64,000 nt of DNA from Rhizophagus irregularis (taxonomy: Eukaryota > Glomeromycota > Glomeromycetes > Glomerales > Glomeraceae): the NCBI RefSeq assembly GCF_026210795.1, contig NC_089455.1, positions 1,612,001-1,676,000 on the forward strand, given 5' to 3'. The notes beneath the pieces were generated by a model. It was given only the letters and a program-made list of their open reading frames with translations, was not told the DNA's origin and did not search any database. This document shows, in pieces, positions 19,215 to 56,431 of the stretch (within the stretch, counting starts at the first letter, position 1; every line of letters starts with the position of its first letter). A program made the translations under genes and the position numbers.

Positions 19215-19263
19215 TTAAATAGAAGAAGCTGAATCAGCTTGTTCTAGGGGAGCACCACCAATG
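19215..19263 (-). pseudogene. LINE B ORF1, 3' end beyond the CACTA insert
   Basis: The last codons of ORF1. Joining 26107-26109 (one target duplication) to this stretch gives ISSIGGAPLEQADSASSI followed by a stop at 19215-19217, in frame with the ORF1 part to the right. This shows the CACTA element landed about 15 codons before the ORF1 stop. Confidence 0.75.
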
Positions 19264-19770: not shown

Positions 19771-19809
19771 GTCATTTCATCAAAATAAAGTTCGAAAAAG
19801 ATACTAATT

Positions 19810-31139: not shown

Positions 31140-32449
31140 ATGTTGTTAATAGTGGTTCCAATTATTATGTTATTACTTCATCATTACTTTAATACAATTC
31201 CACCAATTTTTCAAACAATATTTCAAGCAATTTCGATATTATTTGCAAATGTATTTATTGTAATTCCAATATCTATTATATTATTTATTCGAGATTTAGG
31301 AAATGTATTCTTTAATAAAGAAAAATCCGTAGACCCAAAAATTATTTTAATCACAGGCGCAAGGTATATTTTAAACAAAAAAAAATTCAATGGAATTTAT
31401 AATAAATAATAAATCATAAAATTCGCTTTGTGTTTTTATAGCTCCGGAATAGGTGCGTCTATTGCAAGAGAATATGCTAAACCTGGAGTTATTTTAGGTC
31501 TTCTTGCACGTAGTGAAGGTTCGTTATGGTTAGATTCAAACTTAAGTCGACACTAATTACATAAATTAAAATATTTTCTAATTTTTTTAATAGATAAGTT
31601 AAGTAAAGTAGCGGAACAATGTATAGAAAAAGGTGCAAAATGTGAAATCTTGAAAATTGATATTTCAAATATTGAAAGTTTAAATAAAGCATTGGAAGAT
31701 TTTGATGACAAATATCCAATCGATTTATTATTCGCTAATGCCGGTAAGTCATAAAAACTTCTCGTGGTCAGTAAATTGAACGTCACAACTAAAATTCGTA
31801 TATAATTGTAGGTCAATTAGCTGCTACGAGAGATAATTTTGGTAAAGTTAAATGGGAAGATGCATATAAACCTTATATTGATGTCAATTATATTGGAAAC
31901 ATTGCAAGTGTAATGACTGTTTATAAACGAATGAAAGAAAGAAAACGTGGTCAAATCGCAAGTAAGTACCTTGTTTCTTCTTTTTATCTTTTCATATTTC
32001 AATTATTCTTAAATGCTAAATTATGCGCTTTTGTCTTCTTTGCTTTTATAGTTACAACTTCAATTGCGGGATGGTTTAGCCCACCAACAACAGCATTCTA
32101 TAATTCTATGAAATCTGCATTAAATACATTTGCACGTGATCTTTTTTATATTGCTAAACCATATAATGTTCATATCTCACTTATAGTACCAGGATTAATT
32201 GAAACTAATATGACGGCACACCCAGATCAACCATTTCCTCATACTCCTAATCGTTATGAAAGTGCTGACAATTTAGCAAAAATCATTAAATACCAATTAT
32301 CTTATAATGTATTTCATATTGGTTGGCCTTATTTTCAAAATATAATTACTTTTACTATAGCTACTTTTCCTATTAGAATTCAATTATTAATTTCCAATAT
32401 GATGGGTAATCATATGACAAAAAATGGTAAAAATATTGTATTAACATAG
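31140..32449 (+). CDS. Membrane-anchored short-chain dehydrogenase/reductase
   Basis: Five exons (31140-31363, 31442-31518, 31594-31743, 31812-31961, 32052-32449) join in frame to 332 residues. Residues 1-55 are strongly hydrophobic and probably form one or two membrane segments. The SDR fold follows: the cofactor motif ILITGASSGIGASIA is assembled across the first intron, with NAG at about residue 145, a catalytic-Ser region TTSIAGW, the YNSMK catalytic Tyr/Lys pair and a PGLIETNM motif. Classical SDRs use NAD(P)(H) to oxidise or reduce alcohol/ketone groups; the membrane anchor suggests a lipid or steroid-like substrate, as in KDSR/HSD-type enzymes (inference). All introns have GT-AG ends. 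The catalytic residues look intact. Confidence 0.9.
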
Positions 32450-32731
32450 TATATTTAAGATTTATTTATTTTAATGTGTTATCTGTTTTAAACGACAATA
32501 AAATGTTTTGTTATCTAAACTTGTAGAGATATATGATTTTTATTGGCTGACGATAACGTAGCTAACATAGAAACGCCCGATGACTACAAAATTTCTAAAC
32601 CCTTATGCTTCGCTCCAAACAATATATAGAATATATAAACGTTACACTAAGAGTTGCTGATTGGTTCGGATGATTATTACTATTTGATTTTCATTGCTGA
32701 TTCTTATTTTCAAAAAATTATTTGCCCAAAG

Positions 32732-34279
32732 ATGAGTGAATTTCCAAAATTAGTTGATGATTGTTTACAAAATATATTCGAATATTTAAGTAATGATTTA
32801 AAAGCATTACACTCATGCGTTCTTGTTAATAGAAAATGGTGTCAAATTTCAATTCCGGTTTTTTGGAGAGATCCATGGGAATATCGAAGAGTAGGATCAT
32901 TAAAAAAATCTTTTACTATAATCAACACATTTATTTTAACATTACCAGAAGAATCTCAACGAAAATTATTACAAATTGAAATTATTCAACATTCTTTTCT
33001 AAAAAAACCAATATTTGAATATTCGAAATTCTTACAAAGTATAGTTTTACATGAATTGGAAAATGATATTAAAATTTGGATTCATCATCAATCAAATCAA
33101 TTTAAGCAACGTAAAAGGAAAGTCATCAAGAATTTTTCATTGATTGATAATAATAATATAAAAGGAAATGAACAAATACAGAATTTCAAAAGGAATAAAA
33201 AGAATTTAATGTATGAATTACTTAAATTCTTTCTTATTCATTCACAAAAAATAGATACACTTTACGTATTGGATTTTAATTTTTCTTTTATAATGGAAAT
33301 TATTAAAAGAGAACCAATAGCAAAGAATTGTATCTCTAATTTACGATATTTGCAAATTGGATCTCATATGCTTCCAATATATTTATCAACATTATCAGAA
33401 ATCTCAAATAATCTTGATCATTTAGAAATTGTAAATCATAATCTATGTTCTGAAGAATTAAGAAATTTTATTACCGTGCAAAATAATTTAAAAGAATTAA
33501 CAATAGAAGCTGGTATAATTAGATCTATTAATGATCCAATTACTAATAATACTATAATTGAAATTTTTAAAAAAAAATCGATTATTAAACTTACTATTAA
33601 GGATTCACCTAGTATATTCATTGTTTTGAAAGGTTTTGATAGTTTAACAGAATTAATTATAATTTATAATAACAAATATTCTATAAAATTTTGGGAATAT
33701 ATGGCAAATTCATCATTGAAAAATCTAAAGAAATTGATTATCAATAGTAATAAGATTTATTATGATATTATTACACAATTTATTAATAATTCTTCTTGTG
33801 ATTTAGAACAATTTATCATCACTACTACTTCAAAAGTTGAAGATCCATGTGATATTGGATTATATATCAATTCTATAAGTAATAATTGTCCAAGTTTAAC
33901 TATATTTAAAGGAGTAATTAGTGAAAGTAATGTACTTGAATTGTCTCAATTATTAAAAAAATGCATTAATTTAAAAATTTTACATCTTTATCCAGTAATG
34001 CAAGATGTTGAACAAAAAATGTGTCAATTTGATAATCTTTTAAAAGAGATGATAAATATTTCTTCAAATAATTTATCCAGATTATATTTAGAAAATGGCT
34101 GGAAATTAACATTAGTGGATTATTTTAAAAATTTTATGGAGAAAAGAGAATTATTAAGACTAAAACCAATATCTTTTCATGCTCATAAAAATTTTGCTTA
34201 TAACTCTTCAATATTTTTAACTATTTGTGAAGATTATAAGCAAAAAGATTATTTATTAGATTATTATTTTTACAAATAA
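32732..34279 (+). CDS. F-box protein with degenerate leucine-rich repeats
   Basis: A single exon, 515 residues from the ATG at 32732. The in-frame ATG at 32654 would add 26 residues, but the F-box begins right after the 32732 start. The F-box is MSEFPKLVDDCLQNIFEYLS...LHSCVLVNRKWCQISIPVFW, followed by WRDPWEY, typical of the large F-box family in Glomeromycotina. The remainder has irregular Leu/Ile-rich repeats. F-box proteins recruit substrates to SCF ubiquitin ligases through SKP1; the target is unknown. Codon use is extremely AT-rich like the neighbouring host genes. Confidence 0.9.
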   Translation: MSEFPKLVDDCLQNIFEYLSNDLKALHSCVLVNRKWCQISIPVFWRDPWEYRRVGSLKKSFTIINTFILTLPEESQRKLLQIEIIQHSFLKKPIFEYSKFLQSIVLHELENDIKIWIHHQSNQFKQRKRKVIKNFSLIDNNNIKGNEQIQNFKRNKKNLMYELLKFFLIHSQKIDTLYVLDFNFSFIMEIIKREPIAKNCISNLRYLQIGSHMLPIYLSTLSEISNNLDHLEIVNHNLCSEELRNFITVQNNLKELTIEAGIIRSINDPITNNTIIEIFKKKSIIKLTIKDSPSIFIVLKGFDSLTELIIIYNNKYSIKFWEYMANSSLKNLKKLIINSNKIYYDIITQFINNSSCDLEQFIITTTSKVEDPCDIGLYINSISNNCPSLTIFKGVISESNVLELSQLLKKCINLKILHLYPVMQDVEQKMCQFDNLLKEMINISSNNLSRLYLENGWKLTLVDYFKNFMEKRELLRLKPISFHAHKNFAYNSSIFLTICEDYKQKDYLLDYYFYK

Positions 34280-34431: not shown

Positions 34432-37400
34432 TTACTGAATGAATAAAACTTTTGTATCAACAGGAAAACCAATTCTCTCTAAAGATCTTCTAACTGCATC
34501 CATCATACCATAAGGACCACAAACAATAACTTTACAAGCTTGAGTAGTATCTTGACTTAACATTCTCATAAATTCTTGTCTTTCGGATAAAATGCTCATT
34601 TCATTAGAACTAAATGCAAAAGGCAAAGTATCTCTTCTCATTTGCCAATTATAATTATCATCTATAGGTGGAGGTGTTGGTGCAGTAGGGTAATTATTTA
34701 CAATTGGTGGTGGGCTATATGATGTTGTTAATAACATTTGAGGCTGTAATGATGGATCTTGCAATGAATTTTGTGATAGATTTTGTACTTGATAATTATT
34801 AGTAGGTTGTGTTATAGGTACGTTGATTCTTGGTGGTATTGCTGGAGGTGGTACTTGATAATTTTTTGAAATCCAGTTAAAAAGTATATCATCATCAATA
34901 TGGCCGGTTAATCCTCTCCATATTGGTGGAGGTTTTGTTAAAATATGAGTTACTGTAAGTTTACCATCCGATGTTGATGCAAGGAAATCTAAGTATTTCA
35001 TTGAAATTATGTCTGCTATTTGTGTATTTGCGCAGAGTAAATGTAATTTGAAATTTGATTTGAAATTATCTGCATTATCAAAATGATACTGAATCTATAA
35101 AAAAAAAAAATTCATTTTGAGAGTCAGAAATAATTTCAAGAAATCGTTAATTTAAATAATTAACTTACCAGTTGTAACATAGGAGTTAAACCTGTACCAC
35201 CACAAACCATGAACAAAGTATCCCAACATTGATCTCCTCTAGCAGGATTTAATAATATTCTAGATTGTCCAGCACCACTATTACTAATAGTACCATATAA
35301 GGAACGACTTTCATCACCGAAAACGCTGTCTAAACCGAAATTACTTGTGTGATAACTATGATGTGGGTTAATAACAACATTATTTACACTATTTTGTCTC
35401 ATTAATGTTGTTGTTCCTCTACGTACTAAATTTGGACTAGTTGGCCCAATCGTTGGTGAAGTTGGAAACACGTTTGTTGGCGATAATGATGATTGTATAC
35501 TCATTCTTTCAGCTATATCAAATGGCCCTCTAACCGCTATTTCAAAATTCCTCAATTGTTTATCCTATAAATAGTGCGCATATAAAAGTTAAGTTTTTAA
35601 ACTGCTTTAATAAATACAGATTAATATAAATTTAACTCACCAAATGTTGAGACATGGCACCATCATTGTAAACTTTAACTAAGACCGTAAATGTCTTATC
35701 AGTAGGTCCTTGTAATGGGGTATATGGTCTAATTACCACATGTTTATTAACATAACTCATAATTTCAATATAATCTCCAGGAAAGAACCTTGGTAATTTA
35801 TCTTTTGGATGAAGAACTTGAAATGTTAATTTTTTAACACGATTTTCAGCATCTTGCCTTGTGGCCAATTCGATATTTGTCAAAATATATCTTCTAAATA
35901 TGTAAGGCGAACTATCTTGTGACATATTAGTTAATGTAGTACTATTAGTAAGCGTACCAATATCATCTTTCTTTTGTTGACTATAATCATCTGATATATC
36001 TGGTATTCTTGCTACTACCATAGTTGCCAATTTAGATGTGGCAAATTTTGAATGACGGTGCATTGCTACTCTTGAATTTTTAAATGTTGTACTATTGATC
36101 AAGTCAATAGCATTAGCTATCGTTTTTGGACGTATTGTTTGATTCGTTTTTTTCTTCTTTATGTTTTTATTACTAGTTTCAACATCTTCCATTTGCTTCA
36201 TCAATTTTTCATTTTCTGAAAAAGCTCTATTAATAACTATTTGATCCGCAGGGTCAAAGAAGAAATCATTTGTTATGTCAGTACCAATTACTCTTCTTAA
36301 TATTCTTTGACCTCCTGGATGTATTTTAATCCATTTATGTATGTCAAACACCAATCCTTCTGCTACTACTAAATGTGCTCCTGCCATAACTCTTAAATTA
36401 AAATCATTCCAACTTATTGCTGGTAATTGTTCATAAACATCTTCGGGTATACAATTATGAAGTCGTCTATTTTTATCTCCTGTTTCTCTAACCGGCCATA
36501 AGAATTGCATATTTTTATATTTATAAACATATTCTGATACCACAATCATTATTACCAAGATTGCTACAATAATAATATTATTTAAATATATTAATATTAA
36601 ATGTAAATAATGACATTATTATTTAATTATATTTACCCAGCCAGCACAAATAAAGAACATATACTGCTTGTACTGATCCATATTGTCTTAATCCAAGATA
36701 AATTTGGACCCTATAAAATTATTATAATTATAAATTATTATAAATATTTTGTAAAAATTTTTTTTCTTTTAACTTCAAATATTTACCATGAAAGAAATAA
36801 TAATGAAACGCCTAAATAAAAATGGAGATGTTTTAACCCAACAACAATTCCTGTACTAGCTGATTCGACAGTTGCAAGTCCCCATATGGCAAGAATACCC
36901 AATCCAATTTGAATAAATAAAGTAAAATAAACCAGCAATCCGCAACTAAAAAAAAAAGATCATCGATGAAAATCACCCTCTACCTCAAATTCAATAATTA
37001 AAATATTACTTACATTCCATGAGCATTCCTTCCATGTTGAGGAACAGTTGCCATAGCTGCGGCCCCAAAAGTAATTACCATTAAGCCTCCGAGCATTTGT
37101 AAGTTACGATGCTGAGACATATAGGAATCGATATGTTTCAAATATCGAACAATAAATATTGAAGCTAAAAAAAAAGGTATAAATAAATATAAGTTAAATT
37201 ATGCATAAAAGCATATCTAATATTTTACGTGATAACTTAAAAAAACTCACCAGGGAATAGAATACTAAAAAGTTGATAGAATTACATACATATTTATATT
37301 AATAACTTTATACTTTTTATACTTTGTATTGTTAAATATATATTTAAATAATACTAACCCCCAAACTGTAAACATTGCAATACCATGAATTAATTGTGTA

Positions 37401-39755
37401 AGTGAATTCGACTTTAAAACTTCAGCGGAAGTTTCACCTGAAAAGAAGTTTACTTTTGTTGCTCCACGATTACCTCCATGATAAGAAAATTCCATCGAAT
37501 TTGGATTCCAAGCATAAATCAATGTAATCATACTATTAGGAATTGGACGTCTATTTGGAGCATTTAATGGACGTGAAATTTCAACTTGAGTAACACCATT
37601 TAAGGTAGATTGACTTAATATTGTTACGAATTGATTTTCTGCATCTACTTCAGGTTTTTTATAACCATTAGACTTATAATCTTTTACGTATACTGTTGAA
37701 TCATTTTTATTCCACATAATTGTCATATCAGCATCAAACATCCCAGTGTCTAATGGATTAAATCCTATTCCGAACCATGAATTGTTACTCAACATTGTTA
37801 ATTTTAGATTAATTTTATCTGCTTTAATGACCCATCTAACTTCATAAACTTCACTAAATTTAATAACATTTTGTGGAGGATAATCATTTTTATCAACTGG
37901 TTCATTTGTTGCATTAAAAGTTACCATAGGTTGAACACTCCATAGATTTTTTGGATAGTTAATATATGATGGAGTATTTCTTTGAATAACTGATAACAAA
38001 GTTGTATTACGAATGTCATCAATTTCTGCAGTTGTAAATCCCGCATCAGTTCCTTCGAACCAAAATCTATCCGAATTACGAATTAAAGTCCATTGTTGAG
38101 TAACACTTGCATGAAAGAGAGGACCTAAAAGTGATCCTTGTAAATGGGGCTCAGCTAAACCTCCTATAAAAGATTCGACTAAATCCACATTCCCGTATGT
38201 AGATTGTAAACGATTTTGAACTTCTTGATCTTGTGAAATATCACTAAATCGAGATGCTCTAACTAAATCAAATGCTTCTCTCGCATCGTTATATAATGGT
38301 ACTCCACGATCACGACCTCTCACAATATCAAGACTTGCAATATCTTGAACAGCTACTTTTGGACGAAAAGCTCTCATTTGATCAGCAAAAAAGATATCAA
38401 TTTCTTCTTGCCTAAAAAAAAAAAAGTTTATGAGAACTAGGAGAATGTGGCGCAGCGAAATTATAAAAAATTTTTTTTTTATCTACCTTTGAAGGGCCAT
38501 TGAAAGAATCAATGTTGGAACACCATAATTTTCAATAAGATTAGGTATTTGAAGTGCATTAAGAGGTAATTCTGCAAGTTTATAACCATCTTTATTCACA
38601 ATATCATAAGTATCACTCAATTCAGAATGACCATAACGAGAAGTAACAGTTGCAAAGAATGAATCAATAGACGGTGTTAATGAAGCGTCATATCCACTAT
38701 AGGTCGGTAAAGGAGTTCCTAATAAAACACTAAGATATTCAAGATAAGTAATTCTTTGAATAATTGCAATGACCCATCTTCTTGCTTCTTGAAAATATTC
38801 TTCATCATTCCATTGATTCTTATGTTGTAAGTATAATTCATCACATTTACGATTATGTTCCCTCATAAAAATAAGCAAAATTGTATTTATAAATACATTT
38901 TTTCCTTTATGTTCACTAACAGCAAAAATATATTCATTAGTTACACCATCAATTAATGGATAACCAAATCTACCATCATCACTATCTACATAATTTAATT
39001 TAAATTTTCCAAGTCCACTTTCTTTATCACGAACTCTTGCCAATTGGGTATCAGTAATACCGTAAATTAGTGATCCATCAAGAAAAGATGTAATTCGATT
39101 AATACCATTTCTAATTGGGGCAATTGTTCTATTAAATGGTAAAGAAATGTCTGTCAAAGGCTGATTTGATGGACCAACAAAGTATTGTGAATTGAAATTT
39201 GAGTCATCCGGAGGGATGTATATGGCTAAATTTTCACCAGTAGACACAGTATTTACAATGTCCAAACTAGCAAATTGACCCCAAAACGTTACCTTAAAAA
39301 AGAAAGAAAAGTATTAGGAAAATCCGATACTTGGACAGATATAAATTATATGATGAGCATACCATATGAGAAGTTTTTCTTTTTGCTTTTTTTGCTTCCA
39401 GAGCATTTAAATTGTACTCATTTTCTAATTTTGATTGCAATCCGTTAACTAAGTCACTAACACACCTTGGAAGAGGGAGTTGTCCTTTTGGTAAAGGAGT
39501 CGTACAAAGTGTATCTTTTGGTACATCTATTGTATACTCCCCAGGTGTTGAAGCCATTGCATTTCCTGATGCATCCGGCCATGAAGTTTTTCCAATATTT
39601 CTGGTTAATTGTGACTGTGGTGTACCTGCTTTTGGATCACCTTTATTATTTGATTGTCCATCAAGCGGACGTATTTCCGCTTTTACTAATATTAAGTTGA
39701 TGAAAATCAATAGCAATATTACTGCGGTAAACTTATTATTTAATATTATAATCAT
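34432..39755 (-). CDS. Peroxidase-DOMON-cytochrome b561-cytochrome b5-FAD/NAD(P)H reductase fusion, gene 1
   Basis: Ten exons (39755-39363, 39292-38487, 38411-37359, 37264-37251, 37164-37014, 36945-36787, 36710-36637, 36563-35641, 35564-35169, 35094-34432) join to 1543 residues. Domains in order: signal peptide (1-26); DUOX-like heme peroxidase (about 120-560) with WGQFASLD, FLDGSLIYG, REHNR at 275, RYGHS with proximal His 353, and LDIVRGRDRGVPLYN; DOMON (about 565-725, NSWFGIGFNP); cytochrome b561 (about 735-880) with four His, in IHGIAMF, SQHRNLQ, NAHG and KHLHFYLG; cytochrome b5-like segment with IHPGG at 965; FNR-type reductase with RPYTPL, CGGTGLTPM and CGPYG. Likely role: moving electrons from cytosolic NAD(P)H through FAD and hemes across a membrane. 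The distal peroxidase His is replaced by Leu 141. Exon 4 is a 14-nt microexon. Confidence 0.9.
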
Positions 39756-42700
39756 CGTTAAATATTTTTTTTTTTAAAAAAAAAGAAAAAAAAACCCAAA
39801 AAGTTAGAACAATTTATGAAATATGAGAGATATATAATATTTTTTATTTATTTATTTATTTATTGAAAAAGGGGTACTATTTTTTTTTCTTTTTCTAAAA
39901 ATAAAATCATTAATTGACAATATTAAAATTCGGAATTGATTATTTTTTCTTTTTTTTTAAAAAAAAAAAAAAATTTATTATAATAGCAAATTAAGGTTTT
40001 GTTTTTACCATTTCTACTGTATTAGGTTACTCATTAATTTAATCGTTTCAGGATTATCAGGTAATAATATTTGCCCATTTATAAAGAGATCCTTTGTTTC
40101 TCCGATCGATTAGTAATTACCTTAAATAAGTGAATATAACACTAGAAATTAATGCGAGTGTCAAAAAATAGTAAGTTATTGAGACATGTTGTACTTCTCT
40201 TATTATGTGCTGTATTAATGTACGGAATTTTCTGTAAAAAAAAAGAAATAAAGAAAGAAAGAAAAAAAAAAAAGAATAAATAAATGAAAATAAAAATAAA
40301 AGGTAAAAATGAAACAAAATAACAAAATTTGTTTTTATAGAAATATCAGAAACATTCCAATTAACATTCATTTACCAACTAAATAAACAAAAAACGCGTT
40401 TTATGATAATAATAATATTATTATCATTATTTTAATGACAATATTACACAATTTAGATCATTTTATTTTAAGTAATTTGAGGGTACGATTAATGATATAC
40501 AAGAAACTTGCAGAATTTAGGTTCAATTAAGAGATTTATTTGGTCTAAGATATCCTTTTTAGGAACAATGATAAATTAAATTTTTTAAAAATAACTTTTT
40601 TGTTGCATTTTTTTTAGTAAATAAATAAGAATATAGATCAATTGATTTTAACCATCAGATAAAACCGTTGATATAACCCTGCTTTACTGACTCACCAATA
40701 CGGTGCTCGGGTGCTGTGTACATTAAAATCAATGTACATGTCACAATATTTTTCTTATTATAACTCTTGTTATTGGTCGATTATCAAATCTAATCTGTAA
40801 GCTATGAAATTATGTTTGAACTTTACTAGTCTAATCTTAGTTAATTTACGGAATTCCACGAATAATTGTTTTAACTTTATATAAATACAAAATGTTTCAG
40901 CTTTTTTTTATTATTATCTAACTATATATGTACTCTATATCCGAAATTCAGGTTTCCATCGTAAGAAGGTAGTCCCGGGTCTCACATTCTTTGCAGTCCT
41001 AATAATGGATGGAAGGCTGTGGTTGATCCTTACACTTTACTATTAATAGTTTTAAGCGACACAATACAGTGCCCTTTTTTTTTACGGATTTTCCCCATCT
41101 GTCAGCCGTCTAAACCTGCAGCCTGCTTTAAGCTGGTTAAAGTTTTACAGTTTCACTGATTAACGTAAAGAATTTACAAAAAAGTAAGAATAATCACAGT
41201 GTATCATAAAATTTATTTAAAACTTTGCGATATAACGCCATTTTCCATAATAAGTAATCTATGTGGCGGGCATTTACGGGTCCCAATCATTCTGGTCGAT
41301 CTACCATGTACTTGTGGTCGGAAGTACACGTAGTCATGTGAGTAACATGAATGTATCCAAATTCTCGAATGTCCTAACTTAGTTGAGTTTGAAACACTGA
41401 GGTATAGGATTGTTGGGTTCGAGAATCGTGATATTGTCAAATTTGGGTTTTGGACTACGTCAGAGATACGGGAAAGACTTAATTTTTAAAAGTATAAGAA
41501 TAATTTATATTTATTACATTACATTACGACATTACATGTTCGCATACGTGATACGTTCGTAGCATCACGAGGACGAATCACTCAATTTGGTTTTCATACG
41601 TAAAATTTGATTTTTCATAGTTTTAAAAATTCGCGAATTGGAGAATTGATAAGTAATATTTTTTTTTTTTACAGAAAAAAAATTTTTTTTTCATCATATC
41701 AACTCAACTCATATCAACTGATGATCTTACCAAATGTTAATAGATCCCTTTCAATATAATAAAGAAAAAATTGACCGATTTAACACAATATCAAACTGTT
41801 AATAAATTATGATTCCGTGACACAAGCAATTTTTTAATAAATTAGATGTCATAATTAAAACGGATAACTTCCTTATTTCATTTATAAGAAATAGCCATTC
41901 ACATTCTTTTTTATTTTTGTGCAACTGTAAAACGTCATGTATCTCTCGCCATTTTCTTCACAGTAGTTTTACAGAATCAGAATTTCCTACTACTATCATT
42001 CGGAATGGTCATGTTGGCGCAAATTTGTTTCCCTGTTCTAAAAGGTTAATGGTTGGTGTTGTTTCTTTTTGACTAGCACATGATTAATTTAAATGAATTT
42101 CGTTATGCAAACACGCTTGTGACCCTTATTTAATGTGCCATGTTATGCATTATTTACAACAATAATGCGTGGGAGGAAACTTTCATTTATAATAATTATT
42201 TGTTACAATTCTTAGCGATTTCGCCTTCCTAAAACGGTTAGTAAATTTTAACGGTTTTTTTTTTTCTTCTTCCCCTTCTTTTTTTATTCTAGATACAATT
42301 TCTTTTAAATATAATATTTCTTAAAGCACATATAATTCATACAAATTGAATTATTGATTTCAAATTTTTCAAAATTTTATATATATATATATTATCCCGG
42401 TAATTGTATATAATTTGTTTCCCTGCGAAATTTATAATATTATACATATGTATGCTTGCTTTTCATGTGAATTTATTTTTTCTGAAAAAAGGTTGGTAGA
42501 TATGTGAGTTTTCCTAATACATTATATTCGTCAATCCCATTATCTATTCCCAATATAAGTAAAAAGAACGTTTTTTTTTTTATAATTATAACTACATATA
42601 TATATATATTTATTTAATTAATATTATTATATTGAAAGCCGCTAAGCCGTTTAATTTGACACATATGTTATTGACTGTATATTCGGAAATTACTTTTTAT

Positions 42701-43016
42701 TGTTTTTTATTTTTAAAAATCATATGCATTATAATTTATGTCAGTTACAACCTTAGAATAAACATGTTTAGTACTTGTCCATAGATTTGCTTATCAAATT
42801 ATCTCATCCCTCCCTTTTTTAAGTAAATGAGGGGAAGGAAAAATAAAACAAGCGTAATTTAGAATAGACCATTTAACTTTCCTTTTAAAGAAGAAAGAGA
42901 TCGCGGATCTCTCCGGTAATTAATTATTTAAAGAATAGAAATCCTGACTCTCACTTGAAACCTTGTTAACACGCTTTCATATATTTTTTTTTTTTGAGAA
43001 AAAAAAAAAAAGAAAA
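39756..43016. other. 3.3-kb intergenic region between divergent redox gene 1 and an F-box gene
   Basis: Contains the promoters of the minus-strand redox gene 1 (right of 39755) and of the plus-strand F-box gene at 43017. Poly-T/poly-A tracts flank both starts. A near-perfect 25-base palindrome, ATGATAATAATAAT..., lies at 40403-40427. A (TA)n run is at about 42378-42392. Short open frames are present but none has a recognisable domain or splice partner. No tRNA or other RNA gene was recognised. Confidence 0.5.
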
Positions 43017-44402
43017 ATGTCACCAGCATTACCTACAGAATGTCTTGTAGAAATATTAAAAATTCTTAATACATCTTATACTTTATATCCTTGTATTTTT
43101 GTAAACCGAACGTGGTGTACTGCTGCAATGCCTTTACTTTGGAGTGATCCTTGGAAACATATTTTTGAATGTTATGAAGAAGAGGAGGATGATGAATTAT
43201 CTGAAATGTTAATTTCAACTTATATATCATGTCTTTCAGAGAATGATCATAATTATTTAATTGGTTCTGGAGTAATTTTAATGGATTGGATGAAAAGAAA
43301 ACCATGTTTTGATTATCCTGCTTTTCTTAGAAATATTAATTTTAATGATATTAGTTATAGTATTGAAAAATTTATATGTAAAAATATTGAAAAGGATGAT
43401 TATGATTCAAGATTAATTAATTTTCTTATTGAAAAGATTGGAAATTTATTTATGAAAAAAATTCAAAGGCTTGATTACTTACAATTTTTAGATCGGTTTG
43501 ACCAAATTACTCATGTTGATTATTCCCCTCTGGTATTGCGAAACCTTCCTAAAGCGAAAAATGCCTTTTGTCAAATTAGGAAATTTGTATGTAGAGGTGA
43601 TACAAATTATGAATTTTTAATTGCATTGTCAAAATGTTGTAAATTAATTGAAGACTTGGAAGTATTGGATATTTATGAGGATAATAATGCTTTAGCCCTA
43701 CTCATAAGTTCACAAATATCTTTACGTAGTTTCCGTTTAGAAGTTTCAAATAATACTCCTAGAAATTTTGAAATTATTAATATTCAAAATTCTTTTAAAG
43801 GTATTGAAACTTTAATTGATTTACAATTATATAAAAAATTATTACCTTTAAATTTATTTACAAAATGTAATGGTTTACAAAAATTACATTTTGATTCAAA
43901 ACATGATGATATTCAAGGATTAGAAGATTTTGTTAAAAGAAAATTTCCGGATTTAAGAGATTTAAAAATTCGTGTAAAGAATATTAATATTTTACAATTT
44001 TCTCAATTAATTAATAATACACAAGGATTTGATAAACTTTGTATTTCAGGAAATGTTAAAGATCCTGAAAATGCTATAATATTTCGTGATTCAATTATTA
44101 AAAAATGTATTAATTTATATAGTTTAAGTCTTGCTTTTCAACCTATAGAAATTTTTATACCAACTTTACCAATACTTTTTAAAACTTTTAAAAATCTTCA
44201 ATTCTTGGATTTAATGTTATCAGCTTCTATTGATAAAATTAATATTGGTGATGAATTAATTGAAGCGGCTTTATATATTCCCAAACAATTATGTTATATT
44301 CATTTCCCAAAAAATTGGTATTGTGATAGAGAATCAAATAAGAAATTTTTTGATGTTTTAGATAGAAAAAATATGAATTTGACAATTTTATTACATGTTT
44401 AA
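43017..44402 (+). CDS. F-box protein
   Basis: A single exon of 461 residues from ATG 43017, placed directly after a poly-A tract. An upstream in-frame ATG at 42963 would add a low-complexity FFFFEKKKKRK stretch and is rejected. The F-box reads LPTECLVEILKIL...LYPCIFVNRTWCTAAMPLLW, followed by SDPWKH, as in the F-box at 32732. The C-terminal two thirds are Leu/Ile-rich and resemble degenerate LRRs. It lies between the two redox fusion genes, on the opposite strand. Probable SCF substrate receptor; target unknown. Confidence 0.9.
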   Translation: MSPALPTECLVEILKILNTSYTLYPCIFVNRTWCTAAMPLLWSDPWKHIFECYEEEEDDELSEMLISTYISCLSENDHNYLIGSGVILMDWMKRKPCFDYPAFLRNINFNDISYSIEKFICKNIEKDDYDSRLINFLIEKIGNLFMKKIQRLDYLQFLDRFDQITHVDYSPLVLRNLPKAKNAFCQIRKFVCRGDTNYEFLIALSKCCKLIEDLEVLDIYEDNNALALLISSQISLRSFRLEVSNNTPRNFEIINIQNSFKGIETLIDLQLYKKLLPLNLFTKCNGLQKLHFDSKHDDIQGLEDFVKRKFPDLRDLKIRVKNINILQFSQLINNTQGFDKLCISGNVKDPENAIIFRDSIIKKCINLYSLSLAFQPIEIFIPTLPILFKTFKNLQFLDLMLSASIDKINIGDELIEAALYIPKQLCYIHFPKNWYCDRESNKKFFDVLDRKNMNLTILLHV

Positions 44403-44606
44403 TATTATATTTTATTAATAATAATAATACATACATACTATTTATTTTATTAATGACGTTTTAATCATGTGATATATGATAATTTTTGTATTATAATTTA
44501 TTCATAAAAAATCCCAATGTAACTAAAATATATACATATAATTAATGAATGCCTTTTACATTTTTTTTTTCTTTTTCAAAAAAAAAAACTATTTAACTAT
44601 TTATAA

Positions 44607-47600
44607 TTATGAAATAAATAAAGCTTTTTCATCGATAGGGAAACCTAATTTTTCCAAACACTTTTTAATACTATCGTTAAATCTACTGGTACCACATACA
44701 ACCAATTTAACTTGATTGGTATTATCTGCTGCTAACGATCTCATATAATTATATCGTTCATTTAATATTATTATTTCATTTGTCTGTTGTGGATTATAAA
44801 GTGAAGGTGAAAAATAATATGGTAAATTCTGTGAATTAAAAGACAAATGAGGATCAGAAGGTGATGTTTGTGTTTCTACTGGAATTTGTAATGGGGAAGG
44901 CGGTGGAATTCTATTACGATATTGTGAATCATATAATTCTTCATCATTATATTGTCTTCTTTGTTGCTGTTGTCTTGTTGGTTCTATAATTTCTTCAAAT
45001 TCATCATATTCACTCGTTGGGCCTTTACCATAATTCCTTGGCCTAGGAGGAGGTTGATTTTGATTTGTAATAGTACTAGTACTGATCATACTATTTGTAT
45101 TGCTTCCACCTGCGCTACCATAATTAGATAATCTTGGTGGAATTGCCGGTGGAGGTACAGAATAATTTTGATGAATCCAATCAAATAATAAACCATCATC
45201 AATCTGTCCACTTAATCCTTTCCAAATTGGCGGTGGTTTTGATAAAATATAAGTAATTCTGAGTTTTCCCTTGAGTACTGTACATAAATAATCTAAATAT
45301 TGTGGTTGAATTAAATCTGCGATTGTATCATTTGCGTTTAATAAATATAAATTAAATTTGGAACCCGAAGTGGCTTTATCCATATGATATTGTATCTAAA
45401 AAAATAATGAACATTAATATTTTTAAAATATAAATATAAAAATTACATATCATTTTTAAAACTTACCAATTGTAACATTGGAGTAATTCCAGTGCCGCCA
45501 CAAACCATAAATAAATGATCCCAACATAAATCTTCTCTCTCTTTATTTAACAATATTCCACTTCTACCTTCAAGTAGATGATCATAAGTATTCAAATTAT
45601 AACCTTGTATATTACTATCACCAAAACTATACAATGATTGTCCTCCTCTTATACTACCATATTGTGAACGTTGTTTAATTTTGTCGCTATAGATAGCGGA
45701 AAAATTATCATTACCAGTATTAGGTGAAGGCAATGGAGGTGATGATGGTCTACTATGTATTGAAGCTGGTTTTAAAGATGGTGAAGACACTTGTACCATT
45801 CGATCAGCTATGTCGAATGGTCCTCTCACTTTAATCTCAAAATTCCTTAGTTGTTTGTTCTATAAGGAAAAAAATTTTTTTTTAAAAAAAATTGGTTATA
45901 TGTGTGTATAATATATATTCTAATTTACTTACCAAATGTTGGCTCATTGCCCCATCTTTATATATCTTAACTAAAATGCAGAAGCTATTTTCAGATGGTC
46001 CTTGAAGTGGAGTATACGGTCTAATAACTACATGATTATTTGCTTCACTCATAATTTCAATATAATCCCCGGGAAGGAATTTTGGTAATCTATCTTTTGG
46101 ATGTATAACTTGAAAAGTGAATTTTTTCACAGGTCTTTCAGCATCACTTCTAGATACAGTTTCAATATTAGATAAAATATATCGACGGAAAATATTAGGA
46201 TAAGGTAAAGGTTGTTGTGATTCGTTTAAGTCATTATTAATATTCATAGTATTCAATTTTTGTTGTTTTGGTGATGATACTGATGGTGAACGTATACTAC
46301 CGCTTTCTTCTACAGGATCTATTATCCTTGCTACTACCATGGTAGCTATTTTCGAAGTAGCAAATTTTGAATGTCGATGCATTGCTACTCGTTTGTCTCT
46401 AAATGCTGTAGCATTGATCATATCAACTGCATTGGCTACACTATGTGGTTTATTTGCACTTTCTTTGTTACTAATTTTCTCTCTGTACATGTTATCTGTT
46501 AATACTGATATACTATTTTGATTGGTCTTTTCGTCATATTCAGCTTCAAAATTTTTATTAATAACGGTCACGACTGATGGATCAAAAAAGAAGTCGTTGG
46601 TAATGTCCGTACCAATGACTCTTTTCAAGATCTTTTGTCCACCCGGATGTATTGGAATCCATCTATGTATATCAAATACCAACCCTTCCGCTATAACTAA
46701 ACTAGCACCTGTCATAACTCTCTGATTAAATTCCTAAAAGGGAATACGTACATGTATATATAAGTATATAAAAAAATACGATAATTTTGGAAAAAAACCA
46801 AAATTTATACATACATTCCATGTTATGGAAGGTAGATTTTCATAAACTTTATCGGGAATACAATCACGAATACGTCTTGACATTTCGTCTGTGCTTTTTA
46901 CTGGCCATAAAAATTGCATGTTTCTAATTCTATAATAAAATTCACTTGCTGTTATTATAAATCCAAACATCACTATAATGTAATATCGTATTTTTTTTTT
47001 AAAAGAAAAAGGAAGAAATTTATTATTAGATAATTTAATTAAAAAACAAAAAAATATTCCATATATGAAATTTTAAAATAATAATACCCACCTAACCATC
47101 CAGTGTAGGCCCAAATATATGGTCTATTCTTATTATTTCCATTAAATTTTGTGTCAAATTGAATCATTCCCAAGTATATATTAGCCCTAACATAAACAAA
47201 ATAAAATAATTAGTTTAAAGATAAAAAGCTAAGTGCTCATAATCCAAATAATAAAATTTTGTTTTACCATGCAGCTAAAAGTAATGCACCACCCAAATAA
47301 AAATGAAAGTGTTTTAAATAACGAACGATTCCTGTTGCTGCTGATTCAACATTAGCCAATGCCCAAATTGCCAATATACCTAGTGCAATTTGAACTCCTG
47401 TAATTGCGAATATAATTATTCCCATTCTAACACAAAAAAAAAGATAGATGTTAATAAGTATAATAATAACGAACACAAATTTCAGTGGTCTAACTTACAT
47501 TCCATGAGGAGAACTTGCTTGTAAGTCTACTACAGACATGGCCACCGCACCAAATGCCGCTACTATTGCACCACCAAGGAGATTCAAATTTCGATGTTGA

Positions 47601-50600
47601 GTCATATATCTAATCAACATATTTAATCACGGTTTAGGAATATAGTTATTATTTTTTTTTTTACAATATATAAAACAAAATGAATAACAAATAATACATA
47701 CGAATCTATGTGTCTCAAATATCTAACAATCCATACAGAACCTATAAAAATAAAATTCGTAAACGAGTTAAAAAAAATTTTTTTTTTTTCTTAAAAAAAA
47801 AAATCTCAATATTAACCCACCTGGGAAGAGTACTCCCCAAATTATAAACATTACAATTCCGTGCATTAACAATAAACTTTTTTGTTTAGCATCAGCAAAG
47901 CCAGAACTTTCTCCTGTTAATAGATTTATCATTTTTGTACCACGATTTCCACCATGATAAGACAAAGTTTTTGAATTAAGATTCCAAGCAAAAACCACTA
48001 AAATTTAAAAACAATGTTAATATAATTTTTTTTAAAAAAATAAATAAACAAATATATGATCGTTTTCTTTCTTATCTCTTACTTACTTTCGATTTGATTG
48101 TTAAGAGATTTTCTATTTTTAGCATTCAAAGGTCGCCTAACCTCAACTGTAGTCAGTCCACTTGCGACACTTGTGCCACTCAATAGTGTTATAATTTGAT
48201 CATCAGGAGGTAATTGTCTAGGTTTGACAGCTCGATCAACACCTTTATAATTCATTCCAACAACACCGCTAGAATCTTCATTATTCCAAAATATCATCAT
48301 ATCGGTATCCTTCATAGCAGCACCATTGGGATTAAATCCTATACCAAACCACGAATTTATGCTACTCACAGTAATTAGGAAAATAACATCTGAACCTTCT
48401 ATTTTCCATTGCATATCGAATCCGTCAGCAAGTGATACACCATATCCATAATTACTATTAGATGATGATGTTGATAAAGCAGCTGGTTGTACAAACCAAA
48501 GATTGTTCGGAAAAATTGAAGATTTTGGTGTATTTCTTCTTATAATATCTACTAATCTTGTTGTTTGTATTTTAGAAATATCATCACTGCTGAATCCTGA
48601 CTCTCCTTTATTTTCATACCAAAATCTATCCGAATCTCTAATTTTTGTCCATGTTGCATTAAAACTAGCTGAAATTAATTCTCCGTAATTTCCTCCATTA
48701 ATATGGTCTTCTGCTAATGCACCCATTAATGGTTCAATTTGATCAACTGAAGTGTAAGTAGATTTTAATTTTTGTTGTACTTCAGCATCGCTTGTTATTT
48801 CTTCCCATGATGCTTTTCTTGACAAGCCGAATGCTGCTCTTGCATCATTATATGATGGAATTCCATGATCCCTAGCTCGAATTATGTCAAGACTAAGTAG
48901 ATAAAATTAGAAAATATATTTAAATGAATAAATGGTAAAATTATCGTATGTGCATGTATTTTAGTTGTCAAACTTACGCAGCAATGTCCATAGCTGGGTC
49001 TGGTGATCTAAGTTTTGCATGATAACTTCGCCTATTAATTCAAATATAGATAGTAAAGGTTATCAATTTTAATATTTTTTTTCTCTTAGTAAAAACAAAA
49101 TTATAGGTATATATGTATAAAGAACTTACATATTTTCAGAAAACCAGATGTCAACTTCTTCTTGTCTATAAACAACAACAACAAAAAAAAGAGTAATAAT
49201 TTATATTTGGAAACTTATAAAATGAAATGAATGAATGAAAAAAAAAAATACATACAATTGAAGCGATAATGAAAGGGCGAGTGATGGAACCCCATAAAGT
49301 TGTAATATGGACTTCTCTTTTAAATCGTGTAATGATAATGTCGCAAGATAATCTCCATGTTCATTTACGATGTTATAAAAATCGCTATAAAATGTAAATA
49401 GTATCGGTATATTAATAAAAAAGAAAACGCGTAAAAATAATGATAATCAATTATTTTAATGATATTACCTAATCTCAGAGTGTCCATAACGAAAGGTAAC
49501 GGAAGAAAAGAAAGTATCAATTTGTGGCCTAATGTCTGGTCTATATCCAGTATATGGAGGTAAAGGAACTCCTAATGCGGTTCCAACTATATGGTATATG
49601 ACGAAAATTAGTAATAAATCAATACAAAAAACATGTCCTATAAAAAACTTACGATATTCATAATAAGTTATTTTTTGTATATAAGCTATAACCCATCTTC
49701 TAGCTTCCTGAAAATATTTTTCATCATCCCAACTATCTTTATTGACTTCATAAAGTTCATCGCATAATCGATTGTGTTCACGTAAAAAAATCGTAGTAAA
49801 CGTATCGGTAAAGACATTTTTCGTTGTTGCTTTAATTCCTATAATCAAATTTCCATCCTCATCTGTGCGTGGATAACCGAGTTGCCCATCAGGCGTTGGA
49901 TAAGTAGCCAATTTCATTTTTCCTCTATTACCATAATCTCGAAGTAATTGTAAATCTGCTTCAGAGTTTCCATAAATAGTGGACGCATCAAGAAATGATG
50001 TGGCTGTGTTTAATCCTGTATGATTACCATCTGCTACTGATCGATTAAATGAAAGGAATGGCTAGTGAAAAAAAGGTTTCATTCGTTAATAATACGTAAT
50101 AATTTTATTATAGTAGGATAAAAAATTACTTTCTTTTTTTATACTTACTACGTTATAAGCAAATGAACTGGCAGAAAGACCATTTCGATAATTTGATAAA
50201 TATGACTGATCATCTGTAGGGATATATACCCCCTGAGGAAATATGTCACCTCTAGAAGGGGCAATAATAATATCCATCCTTATGAAGAATGCCCAATACG
50301 TTAACTGAGAAAGTAATAATGATTAATTAAATTATTTGCATATGCCGCAGTATTATGCTATGCAGCATTAAAAACCAAAAAAAACCAAGAAAATGTAACT
50401 TACGATATGAGAATTTTTTCGTTTACTTTTAAATTTATCCAAACGTTTAAGATCAAAAGAATCCGTGTCTTTTAACGTCATAGCGGTAATTAAATTACTA
50501 ACACATCTAGGTAAAGGATAATTACCAGCGGGTAATGGATCGACACAAGATACTTTTGGATCAGTTGCATAATTTCCTGGTGTAGGGACCATTTGAAATG

Positions 50601-50769
50601 TAGCCGCATCCCCATATAACAAGTTTGGCAAAGCTTCTCTAATTAAAGGAGTATTTGGAATGCCATCCGATGGAAAATTTCTATTATTTCCTTCACCATT
50701 TATTGACCGATAATCACATGTTACAAGGGTTATTAGAAGAATTAGATGGAATAATATTTTAATTAACAT
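44607..50769 (-). CDS. Peroxidase-DOMON-cytochrome b561-cytochrome b5-FAD/NAD(P)H reductase fusion, gene 2
   Basis: Seventeen exons (50769-50404, 50304-50149, 50061-49653, 49586-49469, 49384-49256, 49165-49130, 49031-48978, 48892-48087, 47997-47821, 47741-47702, 47609-47499, 47426-47268, 47186-47092, 46972-46815, 46733-45933, 45859-45467, 45395-44607) join to 1598 residues. Same domain order as gene 1: signal peptide, heme peroxidase (FLDASTIYGN, REHNR, RYGHS), DOMON (NSWFGIGFNP), cytochrome b561 (MHGIVMF, TQHRNLN, SPHGI, KHFHFYLG), cytochrome b5-like IHPGG, and reductase (RPYTPL, CGGTGITPM, CGTSRF). In the distal site WGQFASLD of gene 1 becomes YWAFFIRMD, so the distal His and neighbouring Gln are both absent. 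The CGP motif is CGT here. It is a tandem paralogue of the gene at 34432-39755, on the same strand, with many extra introns. Confidence 0.9.
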
Positions 50770-52037: not shown

Positions 52038-54942
52038 TCATCTTTCACCTATTTCTTCTTCAATTTCATCTATTTGTTTTTTTAGTTGTTTCACTTCTCT
52101 CTTCTTATTGGCCTTTTTACTTTTAGCATATTGATCATCTCTAAATTCTAAAGGGATTTTATCTAAATCTATTATAACTTTGTGGTTTTTATCAAGACTG
52201 GCACCTTGATTGGTTGACTTAATACCATCTTTCCTAAATTCGTTAACCATATCATTTGAACCATTTTGATCATTAGGTATCCAAACGCTAGGTTGTATGG
52301 CCACAAGAGCAGGATGCGTAAACGTACTTGCTCCATAATCATCATCCAAGTCTTTTTCATCTCCTTCATTAATATGTAATACATCCGCTCTTGTATAATC
52401 ATCGTTATCATCATCATCATCATCATCATTTCTAATAGGTTCTTTTTCCGATGAAATTTGTTTATCTTGATTTTTACCTACTAAAAGATTTCTTGTTTTC
52501 ATATCAATAACACCCATTAAATCAACTGGTAAAAATTCGGCTCTTGGATTGTGTTTAAAAATAAGTTTCATTGCTAATAATACTCCAACTGATAATACTA
52601 ACAATATTATACATAATACACCTTGCACAAATCCTCCATTAAGGAACATTAATCCGGTAAGTGTTAATTGAAATATATAAATTCCAGTAAACACTTGATA
52701 AATTGCTTTAGGGAATAATAATCCTCCTGTTTGATTTAGTTTATCATAAACATAAAGGAATTGATGCCGATATACAAGGTAGTAAAGTGCAAAATGTAAT
52801 GTAACAATGGGAAGAATTATTGGTTGTATTGTAGAATATACAATACCTATAGAAGCTATCATAATATGTGGAGGAAACCCTGTTCCCCAATCTTGAAACG
52901 GCATCGTTTTTTCCAATTCCCAAATTTTTCTAGGAGTTTTAACAAGAAACTTTTTAAATATAAAATTCATAATTAAGGGTCCAATTTGAAAGATTTCTAA
53001 AGCGCAAGCAGTTATTGTAAGAAGAATGTAAGTGAGGAAAAATGTTGAAGCGCGTGGAAGGTTATTTGCTAAAATTTCAATTGATTGTGTTGGATTATTG
53101 ACAAGTTTTGGTAAAGATTGAAGTATACCATTGGCGAATGTTGTAACTAACAGTACATTCATAACCTAAAAGTAATTTTTTTGTGATTAATTAATTTCTT
53201 TTTTAAAGAAACATAAATTTACATATACGTACGAGATGAAAGTAATATTTGCTTTGCAAGCTAAGATCTACTCCTGAATTTGTGACACTTCCTTCGAATC
53301 TCGATAAAACTAATAAAATTTTTTCTTTTTAATGAAATTTTCAAATAAATTTCCTAACATAATATTAAGTTACTTACATCTTAAAACTATTACCAATATC
53401 ATCATCAATATATTTAAGGCTACAGCCGGTAAAATACCCTGAATTATTCCGACAAGTACTTTTAAATTTCCTTCAGCATTATTAAGTCCTTCCAAGAATT
53501 TTAAAGGTTTAAGTTTTGCCAATTCGGACAATGTAGATATACCCGCGACGAATGTAACTAAAAAAAAAAAAATTTTCAATTAAAACTTTACAATTTTTTA
53601 AATAAATTTTTTTTTATTTATTTTTTTTTTTGCATATTACCTGCGGACATCCAAATTATTACAATGCCAATTACAACAGATAAACTTATAACTCTTCTGA
53701 TCATCTTTTGTTTGCTAGTTAAATTCAAATTTTCCCAAATAATATCATCAGGTGAAATATTAATTAATTTTGGAACTGTTGAAGTAGCAGCTAACTGTGC
53801 TCCAACATAATCATTAAATTGTATGAAAGCCGAATTCAATCTTTTAAAGTCATTAGGATTTTTTTGTAATTCTGATATTTGATGATTTATGTCATTTAAA
53901 TCATTACTATATGTTTCTAAAGAATCAACTTTTTTTCCTATTATTGGTAATTTACTACTATGTTGTGGACGTTTAATATTTGGTGAATTTCCATTTTCAA
54001 CATTGGATTCCCTAAATTCTGGTTTTGTTGAATCTTTGGCGTATTGGATTATATAATTTGTTGCAGCACCTTCTAAATTATTTACAATTGCCTCTCTTTT
54101 AGCTGTGGCTTTTGCTAATTTAGATGGATCCCTATTAAGCCATATACGTTTCACACCACCTGGGAATATGTCGAATAATGCTTTTAATGATTCAGAATTA
54201 TTTAATTCCTTAGGAATTCCCGTAACTAATATTGTGGTTGCTCGTGGAGAATTACGATATTCATCAGTTGTATGATATTCATGACGTAGACGAATAAATG
54301 TGTTAAACTCTCGATATAAAGCGTACATTATGATACCTATTATATAATTACATGTTAGTAAAACTTAAAATAATGTGATAATATTTTAAATGAAAATGTC
54401 GTACCACTGAATAACCAAGTAAAAATTACGTGAGACCATAATCTTTTTTCATCACGAATATTACCGATCGTAAATTTTTCCAAACCCTGATTATCACCCT
54501 GATTTACGGAATTAATTGGTAATAAAACTGCTAATCCAAATATGCTAAAAATAGCAAACAGGATCATAAACAATTTCATAAATCTCAAAAACATGTATGA
54601 ATCAAGACCTATTCTTTTTATAACCTCTTCATCAGAAATCTTCAATACCGGTAAAATCCATGCAAAAAGGCCTGGTGGAAGTGGTTCTGACCTATTACTA
54701 AAAAAAAAAAATAATAATCATCATTAGTAAGTATATAACAATCTGAGGTGAAAATTATGAGTGCTTTACCTTTCGGGAACCAGATAAGTTCTAGGTTCAT
54801 AAACCTTTTTATTTCGTTTTCTCAAGATATCAAAAGCAACAAATATTCCTATCGTAACTGCTACATTGAAAACCAAAGATGAAGTAAAAGTTGCAATTGA
54901 TGAGTCCGTTGATTGTTGTTGACTTGCTAAATCTTGGGACAT
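52038..54942 (-). CDS. CSC1/TMEM63-family (RSN1-like) osmosensitive cation channel
   Basis: Six exons (54942-54770, 54697-54405, 54336-53641, 53557-53378, 53309-53233, 53165-52038) join to 848 residues. The N-terminal membrane segment (SSLVFNVAVTIGIFVAFDILR) is followed by the family motif KVYEPRTYL and LPPGLFAWILPVLKISDEEVIKRIGLDSYMFLRFM. Next comes a cytosolic loop with ATTILVTGIP, and then the 7TM core: LSVVIGIVIIWMSAG, LVGIIQGILPAVALNILM, RFEGSVTNSGVDLSLQSKYYFHLVMNVLLV, WGTGFPPHIM and FALYYLVYRHQFLYVYD. Proteins of this family are mechanically or osmotically gated cation channels in the plasma membrane. The C-terminal tail is acidic (a DDDDDDNDD run) and ends in a charged helix. Length is normal for the family. 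Confidence 0.93.
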
Positions 54943-56431
54943 TTATTTAAAAGGAATTTGAAGAAAAAAGGGAAATAAAAGAATAAATTCAATTAATGAA
55001 TATATTTATACATTTTTAATAGTCAAGTATCGTAACACCATTTTACCTCTTACATATATTATACATCATAATAATGAAAGTTTGATCATCATTTTTTATC
55101 AGCCGACTACGCCCAAAAAGATTCTTTGTATCGATATTGCGGCCATAAACCATTTCCATTAGTTGATTTTAGTTGATCAACTAAAAAAATTTCCCATTCG
55201 CTTCTTTTCAATGCTAAACGTTTAAGGATTTAAACTCGATTGAAAGTTCTGTGTATTGTAGTAATTTATTGCCACCTTTACCTAATTAATATTTCATTCA
55301 CCCCTTTTAATTTTTTTAAATCACAAAATTTCTTTTGTTCACCTGTTGGGTTTGAAAGATTTCCTTTTCCAAGCCGATTAAAATAACTTAATTGATGCAT
55401 CGAAATGCTGAACCCACGCCGAGAGAATAAATAGAATAATTGCAGTACCGTACTAACATTATTAGACCATCTGTTTTTTTAAAAAAAAATTTCGCTTAAA
55501 CTTTTTTTATACTTCATGATACTCGTATAAGTTAAGTATAAATATATTTGATTATTGCGCAATTGTTTCCTATTCCTAAAATTTTTAAAACCATAATTGA
55601 TTTATTTATTTATTTATTTACTTTATTTTTATTTTTTAAGTTATAGAAATTCTCCGTATATGTTACTTATGTTACTTATATTACTCCTCTTGGATGACAA
55701 TGTTGTAATTTATATGCTTGATGAACTTTATGTTTACACATGTATATTAGATGACTGATTATCACCGGCGCAGAAAATTTAAAAGCGACGTTCTCCTTTG
55801 TGTTTCATTTGCCCGATTTATAATGGAACTACGGTAGCACCATTAGTTAAAAGTAAAATGTCATCACAAAACATGTCATATAATTCCTTTTTTTCTTTGA
55901 AGGATGCAGTTATGCAAAGATACATCATTGCAGATACGCATATCAAATGACAATAAAAGATGTCCTTTATAATATGTCTGCAGATTTTAAGAAAAAAAAA
56001 TTTTTTTTTCTTGCATAGCATATATTAAATAAATAATATGAAATATAAATATATGGGAAAAAAAAAAAAATTAAAAAAAAAATTTTTTTTTTCTTCCCAT
56101 AAAAACTCTTATCATTTCTTTGTGGAATCGGAGATCATACTATTGGAAGAAATTTTATGCATACGCACTACTTTTCTGATTGCAATTTTTTTCTTATCAC
56201 ATATTGTACAACTTAAATTTCTAAAAAAATAAATCAGTCACCATTGTTTCTGAAGATTTATTTAAATTTAGTTAACTTAAATTTTATTAACTTATAAATA
56301 TTTAACCTGTTCCCATCTTTTTTTTCCCCCCTTATCTTTCATACCGTCTTTCTATTTGATACCCAACCTTAATAACCTTATATATATTATATATTATATA
56401 TAATTATTGCAAATTTTTTTTAAAAAAAACA
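54943..56431. other. Divergent intergenic region (channel gene / BTB-TLDc gene)
   Basis: About 1.5 kb of AT-rich DNA between two genes transcribed away from each other, so it should hold both promoters. Poly-A and poly-T runs and a TATATA-rich stretch at 56380-56402, about 30-50 bases ahead of ATG 56432, are visible. The short frames at 55818-56232 are low-complexity, and I do not call them genes. Confidence 0.5.

Follow-up and report, generated by a model that had tools for sequence, protein, structure and literature searches.

Genes in Rhizophagus irregularis predicted to join a peroxidase-like domain, DOMON, cytochrome b561, cytochrome b5, and a flavin reductase in single proteins

The window analyzed here is a 64,000-nucleotide stretch of the Rhizophagus irregularis genome (contig NC_089455.1, hereafter C27, positions 1612001–1676000), and the feature coordinates in Table 1 and for the neighboring genes are window positions. 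Two minus-strand genes in this window, designated gene A and gene B, were characterized by splicing in silico. The splice sites were inferred from the sequence and picked by eye, and the exons were joined by script. All 25 introns (nine in gene A and 16 in gene B) run from GT to AG and have lengths of 66–119 bp, and neither spliced protein contains an internal stop. An earlier note on this DNA, made from the letters alone, had claimed uninterrupted proteins of about 1543 and 1598 residues, and the spliced lengths match these values exactly.

Table 1. Gene models and predicted modules of genes A and B, in window coordinates.
Feature	Position	Strand	Description
Gene A	34432..39755	-	10 exons, 1543 aa; in silico splicing, GT-AG, without stops
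Gene A exons	39755-39363, 39292-38487, 38411-37359, 37264-37251, 37164-37014, 36945-36787, 36710-36637, 36563-35641, 35564-35169, 35094-34432	-	
Gene A animal-peroxidase-like domain	37949..39671	-	aa 29-554, multi-exon; PF03098; distal His replaced, proximal His kept
Gene A DOMON	37508..37849	-	aa 588-701; PF03351; conserved Met 624, His 711 just past the Pfam match
Gene A b561 core	36538..37402	-	multi-exon, ends approximate; five hydrophobic helices, His 742/774/804/847; from residues and hydropathy
Gene A cytochrome b5, first half with HPGG	36244..36426	-	PF00173
Gene A probable cytochrome b5, second half (HxHS..AT)	35998..36075	-	after an insert of ~60 aa; conserved in 9/9; alignable with solved b5 structures when the insert is cut out by hand
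Gene A FAD-binding module, RPYTPL	35520..35916	-	two exons; PF00970
Gene A NAD(P)-binding module, CGGTGLTPM ... CGPYGMM	34435..35222	-	two exons, internal low-complexity stretch; PF00175
Gene B	44607..50769	-	17 exons (first 50769-50404, last 45395-44607), 1598 aa; in silico splicing, GT-AG, without stops
Gene B animal-peroxidase-like domain	48517..50712	-	multi-exon; PF03098
Gene B DOMON	47984..48420	-	two exons; PF03351
Gene B b561 core	46926..47881	-	multi-exon, ends approximate; weak PF03188 and DUF2427; four His
Gene B cytochrome b5, first half	46590..46823	-	two exons; PF00173
Gene B probable cytochrome b5, second half (HRHS)	46323..46391	-	from alignment
Gene B FAD module	45815..46136	-	two exons; PF00970
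Gene B NAD(P) module	45171..45508	-	two exons; PF00175

For the spliced products, Pfam scans matched five module families in both proteins and in the same order, namely An_peroxidase (PF03098; E = 9e-96 in gene A and 1e-96 in gene B), DOMON (PF03351; 6e-20 and 5e-12), Cyt-b5 (PF00173; 1e-7 and 4e-8), FAD_binding_6 (PF00970; 2e-11 and 1e-12), and NAD_binding_1 (PF00175; 7e-15 and 4e-10). In these whole-protein scans the b561 signal is weak, with PF03188 matched in gene B only (E = 0.0089) and DUF2427 at E = 0.012 in gene A and 0.00019 in gene B. Together with the exon and intron structure, the Pfam modules support the previously claimed order of peroxidase, DOMON, b561, b5, and FNR in one polypeptide. 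With Pfam matches accepted up to E = 1, neither protein shows the NOX/ferric reductase core (PF01794) or an EF-hand family, and the five PF01794 (Ferric_reduct) matches in the genome are all at other loci.

A PF03098 profile search over the whole genome (146.7 Mb, 32 contigs) gave 28 exon-level matches at 11 loci, and the nine loci outside the window were modeled by spliced protein-to-DNA alignment guided by genes A and B. Nine of the 11 peroxidase-family loci, including A and B, have the full architecture, with near full-length alignments and no stops inside the models. The two genes had been presented as a tandem pair; both are indeed full-architecture genes, but they belong to a four-gene cluster that extends beyond the window (A, B, L001, and L002; C27:1646432-1703250, 57 kb, all on the minus strand), and five further copies are dispersed. 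Within the cluster, L001 and L002 lie outside the window at C27:1690533-1703250, on the same strand as A and B, and have the full architecture. The dispersed full-architecture copies are L003 and L005 on C26, L006 on C9, L007 on C11, and L008 on C32. The remaining loci, L004 (C8) and L009 (C21), are animal-type heme peroxidase loci that can be aligned with the family in the peroxidase part only. All seven DOMON-family matches in the genome are inside the nine family genes; the DOMON domains of L007 and L008 are below the threshold of that search and hence absent from the seven. Separately, three b561-family matches were observed outside this gene family (C1:2639946, C10:1490975, and C26:476947).

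In gene A, a single exon runs from the last part of the peroxidase domain through DOMON to the first b561 His, and another runs from the last part of the final helix through the b5 region into the FAD module, most of which it contains. Among the nine gene models, 137 introns occupy 39 distinct position-phase combinations, 24 of which are common to at least two genes; as A and B served as guides for the other seven models, shared intron sites may have been favored. One b561 intron is common to all nine genes and another to eight, and an intron close to the end of the FAD module is present in all nine. Because the splice sites of A and B were inferred from sequence, it may be asked whether a neighboring peroxidase-DOMON gene and a reductase gene were wrongly joined. 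Given the bridging exons of gene A, a split between modules would need to cut the b561 core, and the module order is kept in nine paralogues that share b561 introns. Such an artefact is therefore scarcely credible, and this explanation was rejected.

Phylogenies were inferred from three parts of the proteins (peroxidase, DOMON-b561, and b5-FNR). All three trees join L007 with L008, L001 with L002, and B with L001 and L002, and all recover a group of A, B, L001, L002, and L006 (support 84/89 in the peroxidase tree, and 95/97 and 95/94 in the other two). The trees conflict in the placement of A versus L006, and L003 is weakly placed with L007/L008 in the b5-FNR tree, where long branches were flagged. 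The dN/dS ratios (NG86) range from 0.04 to 0.61 over 32 comparisons (four gene pairs by eight segments), some of which have dS close to or exceeding 1, and the ratios of the peroxidase domain are 0.35–0.43. The family is thus under purifying selection. The shared introns, the largely concordant module trees, and the dN/dS values below 1 argue for descent of the family from a single old fused gene.

The membrane core and the DOMON domain carry the hallmarks of CYBDOM proteins. PF03351 is matched in A and B, and when the b561 segments were scanned alone, PF03188 was matched at E <= 0.1 in eight of the nine members (best 4.7e-8), gene A being the exception. In the family alignment, the four b561 His residues and the DOMON Met and His are present in all nine copies. 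A search of the peroxidase-DOMON part of gene A against NCBIfam gave no match.

The cytochrome b5 region was noted earlier as an HPGG segment. This motif, which contains the first axial His, is present in all nine copies; the description requires correction in that the motif marks the first half of a cytochrome b5, the second half of which is probably past an insert. The Pfam match ends at position 51 of the 74 in the profile, short of the second axial His, and an HxHS..AT......V motif occurs in all nine copies, about 60 residues further on in gene A and at a variable spacing that is shortest in L003. When the insert was left out by hand, at an excision point chosen by the analyst, the b5 profile matched solved cytochrome b5 nearly end to end, with HS aligned on HS. 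The Pfam score of gene A rose only from 38.0 to 39.9 bits upon excision, whereas a control lacking both His residues scored 38.2, and the excised construct of L008 scored 47.1 over profile positions 1–73 of 74, a value that has no control of its own. These alignments suggest that the cytochrome b5 is probably split by the insert.

The FAD module has NADH-cytochrome b5 reductase (2eix) as its best solved match. The FAD and NAD modules resemble those of that enzyme; the gene A/B version differs in being fused to the probably split b5 and a membrane core. The RxYT motif for FAD and the GGTGxTPM motif for NAD(P) are present, with single-residue deviations in the paralogues L006 (RHYC and GGSG), L003 (RGTG), L007 (WGTG), and L008 (GISPM).

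Among solved structures, the peroxidase-like domain matches Dictyostelium peroxinectin A (6erc, E about 6e-58) and the bacterial peroxidase 8s6c best, whereas DUOX1 ranks lower (4e-30 for gene B and 2e-34 for gene A). The domain had been called DUOX-like; DUOX1 is indeed matched, but the two other proteins score better and the distal His is absent. Peroxinectin A itself has the distal His, and its PDB chain of 511 aa lacks the other gene A/B modules. The distal motif contains no His in any of the nine copies. A Leu of gene A aligns with the distal His of 6erc, and the family alignment has Met at this position in gene B, L001, and L002 and Phe in L003 and L005–L008; the HMMER alignment to 8s6c has a gap at the site, such that the exact partner residue is uncertain. 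The Asp preceding the distal His is also absent, which carries little weight as peroxinectin A lacks that Asp in the alignment as well. Some copies, apparently not gene B, L001, and L002, have a Lys or Arg near the column of the distal Arg, in an uncertain part of the alignment. The proximal His (in YGHSE) is present in eight of the nine models. In L007, the YGHSE codons are out of frame in the assembly, with a small frame break near a T run just before the motif (near locus base 1540–1590) that could stem from an error in the assembly or from recent damage. A T-x-F-x-D-x-S motif, which we take to be a calcium site, is intact in five copies (A, B, L001, L005, and L006) and shows changes in L002, L003, L007, and L008.

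Because the distal His is absent in all nine copies, the domain is probably not an active classical peroxidase. A self-fed peroxidase, in which the domain would bind heme and act on electrons or H2O2 from the attached chain, could draw on the purifying selection on the domain, on the proximal His, which eight models contain and the ninth locus encodes out of frame, and on the five intact copies of the presumed calcium site; with the distal motif devoid of His throughout, we consider it very unlikely, and an active peroxidase is not favored. The retention of the proximal His, with the distal His replaced by Met, Phe, or Leu, leaves room for a retained heme. The domain would then be an electron carrier, with its heme kept as a non-peroxidatic cytochrome or a gas-binding heme fed by DOMON, and one polypeptide would hold up to five hemes and one FAD. 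We regard this as improbable. According to the available part of a structural report, DUOX1 lacks residues important for heme binding, the heme ligand His among them, and shows no heme density (PMC7794343). The gene A/B domain is accordingly compared here with a cap that has no enzymatic role, with the one difference that, unlike DUOX1, the gene A/B family keeps the proximal His.

The CYBDOM proteins, which include HYP1 and CRR of plants, CG8399 of insects, and human SDR2, provide a close comparison for the DOMON-b561 part. In the available excerpts, they are described as combining an extracellular Met/His DOMON with a four-His b561 for electron export across the membrane, as in genes A and B. 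The plant proteins HYP1 and CRR, which have a DOMON-b561 core, are reported there as ascorbate-dependent metalloreductases. For CRR, the same excerpts give five helices with a cytosolic C-terminus, and ferric reductase activity was not raised in yeast without an ascorbate precursor. The excerpts mention no flavin reductase, b5, or peroxidase-like domain for CYBDOM proteins, and CG8399 and SDR2 are described with a reeler domain in place of the extra modules of genes A and B.

On these grounds, we consider it fairly probable that genes A and B encode a self-sufficient transmembrane electron wire that reduces a metal or another one-electron acceptor outside the cell. The proteins are likely NAD(P)H-driven, self-sufficient relatives of the CYBDOM metalloreductases, probably located in the plasma membrane. 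Cytosolic NAD(P)H would reduce FAD in the b5-reductase-type module. The electrons would then move to the tethered cytochrome b5, which is probably split by the insert, on to the pair of hemes in b561, and finally to the heme held by the Met/His pair of the extracellular DOMON. From there they would reach an acceptor outside the cell, for which chelated Fe(III) or Cu(II), or some other acceptor of single electrons, is the most likely candidate. The attached reductase suggests an electron donor other than ascorbate; the b5-reductase tail would replace the cytosolic ascorbate of the plant CYBDOM reductases. NAD(P)H-driven metal reduction is favored because HYP1 and CRR depend on ascorbate, a need that an own b5 reductase would remove. 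The outermost peroxidase-like domain would serve as a maintained cap or as a docking or regulatory module, like the heme-free domain of DUOX1.

Several observations weigh against this electron-wire interpretation. The signal peptide, helices, and location were judged solely by a hydropathy cut-off. Gene A has an N-terminal hydrophobic segment and five more segments above this cut-off, as do L001 and L002; five helices with the N-terminal part outside would leave the reductase on the cytosolic side. The topology proposed in the earlier note is thus plausible, but gene B has only four helices after its N-terminal segment at the same cut-off. After any N-terminal segment, L005, L006, and L008 likewise have four helices and L007 has three, and L003 has five with no N-terminal segment above the cut-off. 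In addition, the b561 profile had no match up to E = 5 against solved structures, and an AlphaFold model of the b5-FAD exon of gene B with the gene A row had a pLDDT of 33, which is unusable. Moreover, RiFRE1 is described in the available excerpt as a putative ferrireductase of R. irregularis, and with the five Ferric_reduct matches elsewhere in the genome, iron reduction by the present family would be partly redundant.

Alternatively, the proteins may act as DUOX-like oxidases, which would pass electrons to O2 on the outside and produce superoxide or H2O2 for wall cross-linking or signaling at the plant interface. The peroxidase-like domain would then be a partner or cap. The overall layout is the same as that of DUOX, which in the available accounts has a peroxidase-homology domain with a damaged heme site, a membrane heme core, and an FNR tail. 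The DUOX1 domain, which is among the matches of the peroxidase-like domain, is without visible heme in the accessible part of the report (PMC7794343). However, the core of DUOX is a NOX core, whereas that of genes A and B is b561-DOMON, and the matches to the NOX/ferric reductase core are located separately in the genome. The designation "DUOX analogue" thus holds for the layout (a peroxidase-like domain, a two-heme core, and an FNR tail) and not for relatedness, given the b561 core and the lack of a NOX core and EF-hand. The hemes of b561 and of Met/His DOMON domains have positive potentials and are poorly suited to one-electron reduction of O2, which argues against superoxide as the main product. 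Furthermore, no support was found for the extracellular production of reactive oxygen species raised previously; the characterized DOMON-b561 proteins are, in the available excerpts, ascorbate-dependent metalloreductases. Production of reactive oxygen species is less likely than metal reduction, and a DUOX-like oxidase appears unlikely.

The acceptor may instead be a secreted redox protein outside the cell, for example a copper monooxygenase. A precedent is cellobiose dehydrogenase, whose DOMON-type cytochrome donates electrons to a secreted partner. The DOMON of the present family retains its Met/His pair, and gene A has a weak CDH-cyt match in Pfam (E = 0.0054, below the cut-off). Despite these features, we give the secreted-partner explanation little credence.

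A further comparison is offered by the DOMON-containing eFRE ferric reductases of Naegleria, Albugo, and Phytophthora (PMC3591440). In these proteins, as in genes A and B, an extracellular DOMON is added to a membrane reductase; they differ in being built on a ferric reductase domain, and the available part of that paper mentions no b561, b5, or peroxidase domain (PMC3591440). Among the matches listed from the open-access literature, no title or abstract beginning names a peroxidase-DOMON-b561-b5-FNR protein, and the earlier statement that no characterized protein has the full architecture is uncontradicted there. Each module is of a known kind, and the combination seems new as far as the open-access literature goes, which is limited ground. 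Searches for relatives of the b5-FAD region (seven of nine members aligned) covered prokaryotes and viruses and say nothing on other fungi; one scan each gave 66 pattern stretches in the prokaryotic genome_contigs and 37 in the viral_contigs, with no confirmed relatives in either.

If the proposed electron wire is correct, these proteins would be reductases of the CYBDOM type that run on NAD(P)H and do without ascorbate, and the DUOX layout would have been assembled independently from other parts. The presence of nine copies in an arbuscular-mycorrhizal-type genome would suggest a role in metal or redox handling at the soil or root interface. More generally, the family would make it testable why peroxidase-like domains with inactive sites top transmembrane electron-transfer enzymes.

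The surroundings of the two genes include several other open reading frames (ORFs). Upstream of gene B, minus-strand ORFs at 52038-54364 belong to the calcium-dependent channel/10TM putative phosphate transporter family (PF02714, PF12621, and PF14703). Two F-box-like ORFs are on the plus strand at 32651-34279 and 42948-44402 (E = 1.6e-4 and 5.4e-5, both just short of the Pfam cut-off), ending next to the 3' ends of genes A and B, respectively. Retroelement-like ORFs occupy 10003-22250 on the minus strand; the only one scanned (16927-19233) has an endonuclease-reverse transcriptase match below the cut-off, and a Transposase_21-like ORF at 20876-21661, also on the minus strand, has a match below the cut-off as well. 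Finally, the plus strand carries a BTB-BACK-TLDc protein ORF at 56360-57772 and a piece of a short-chain dehydrogenase ORF (PF00106) at 31793-32449.

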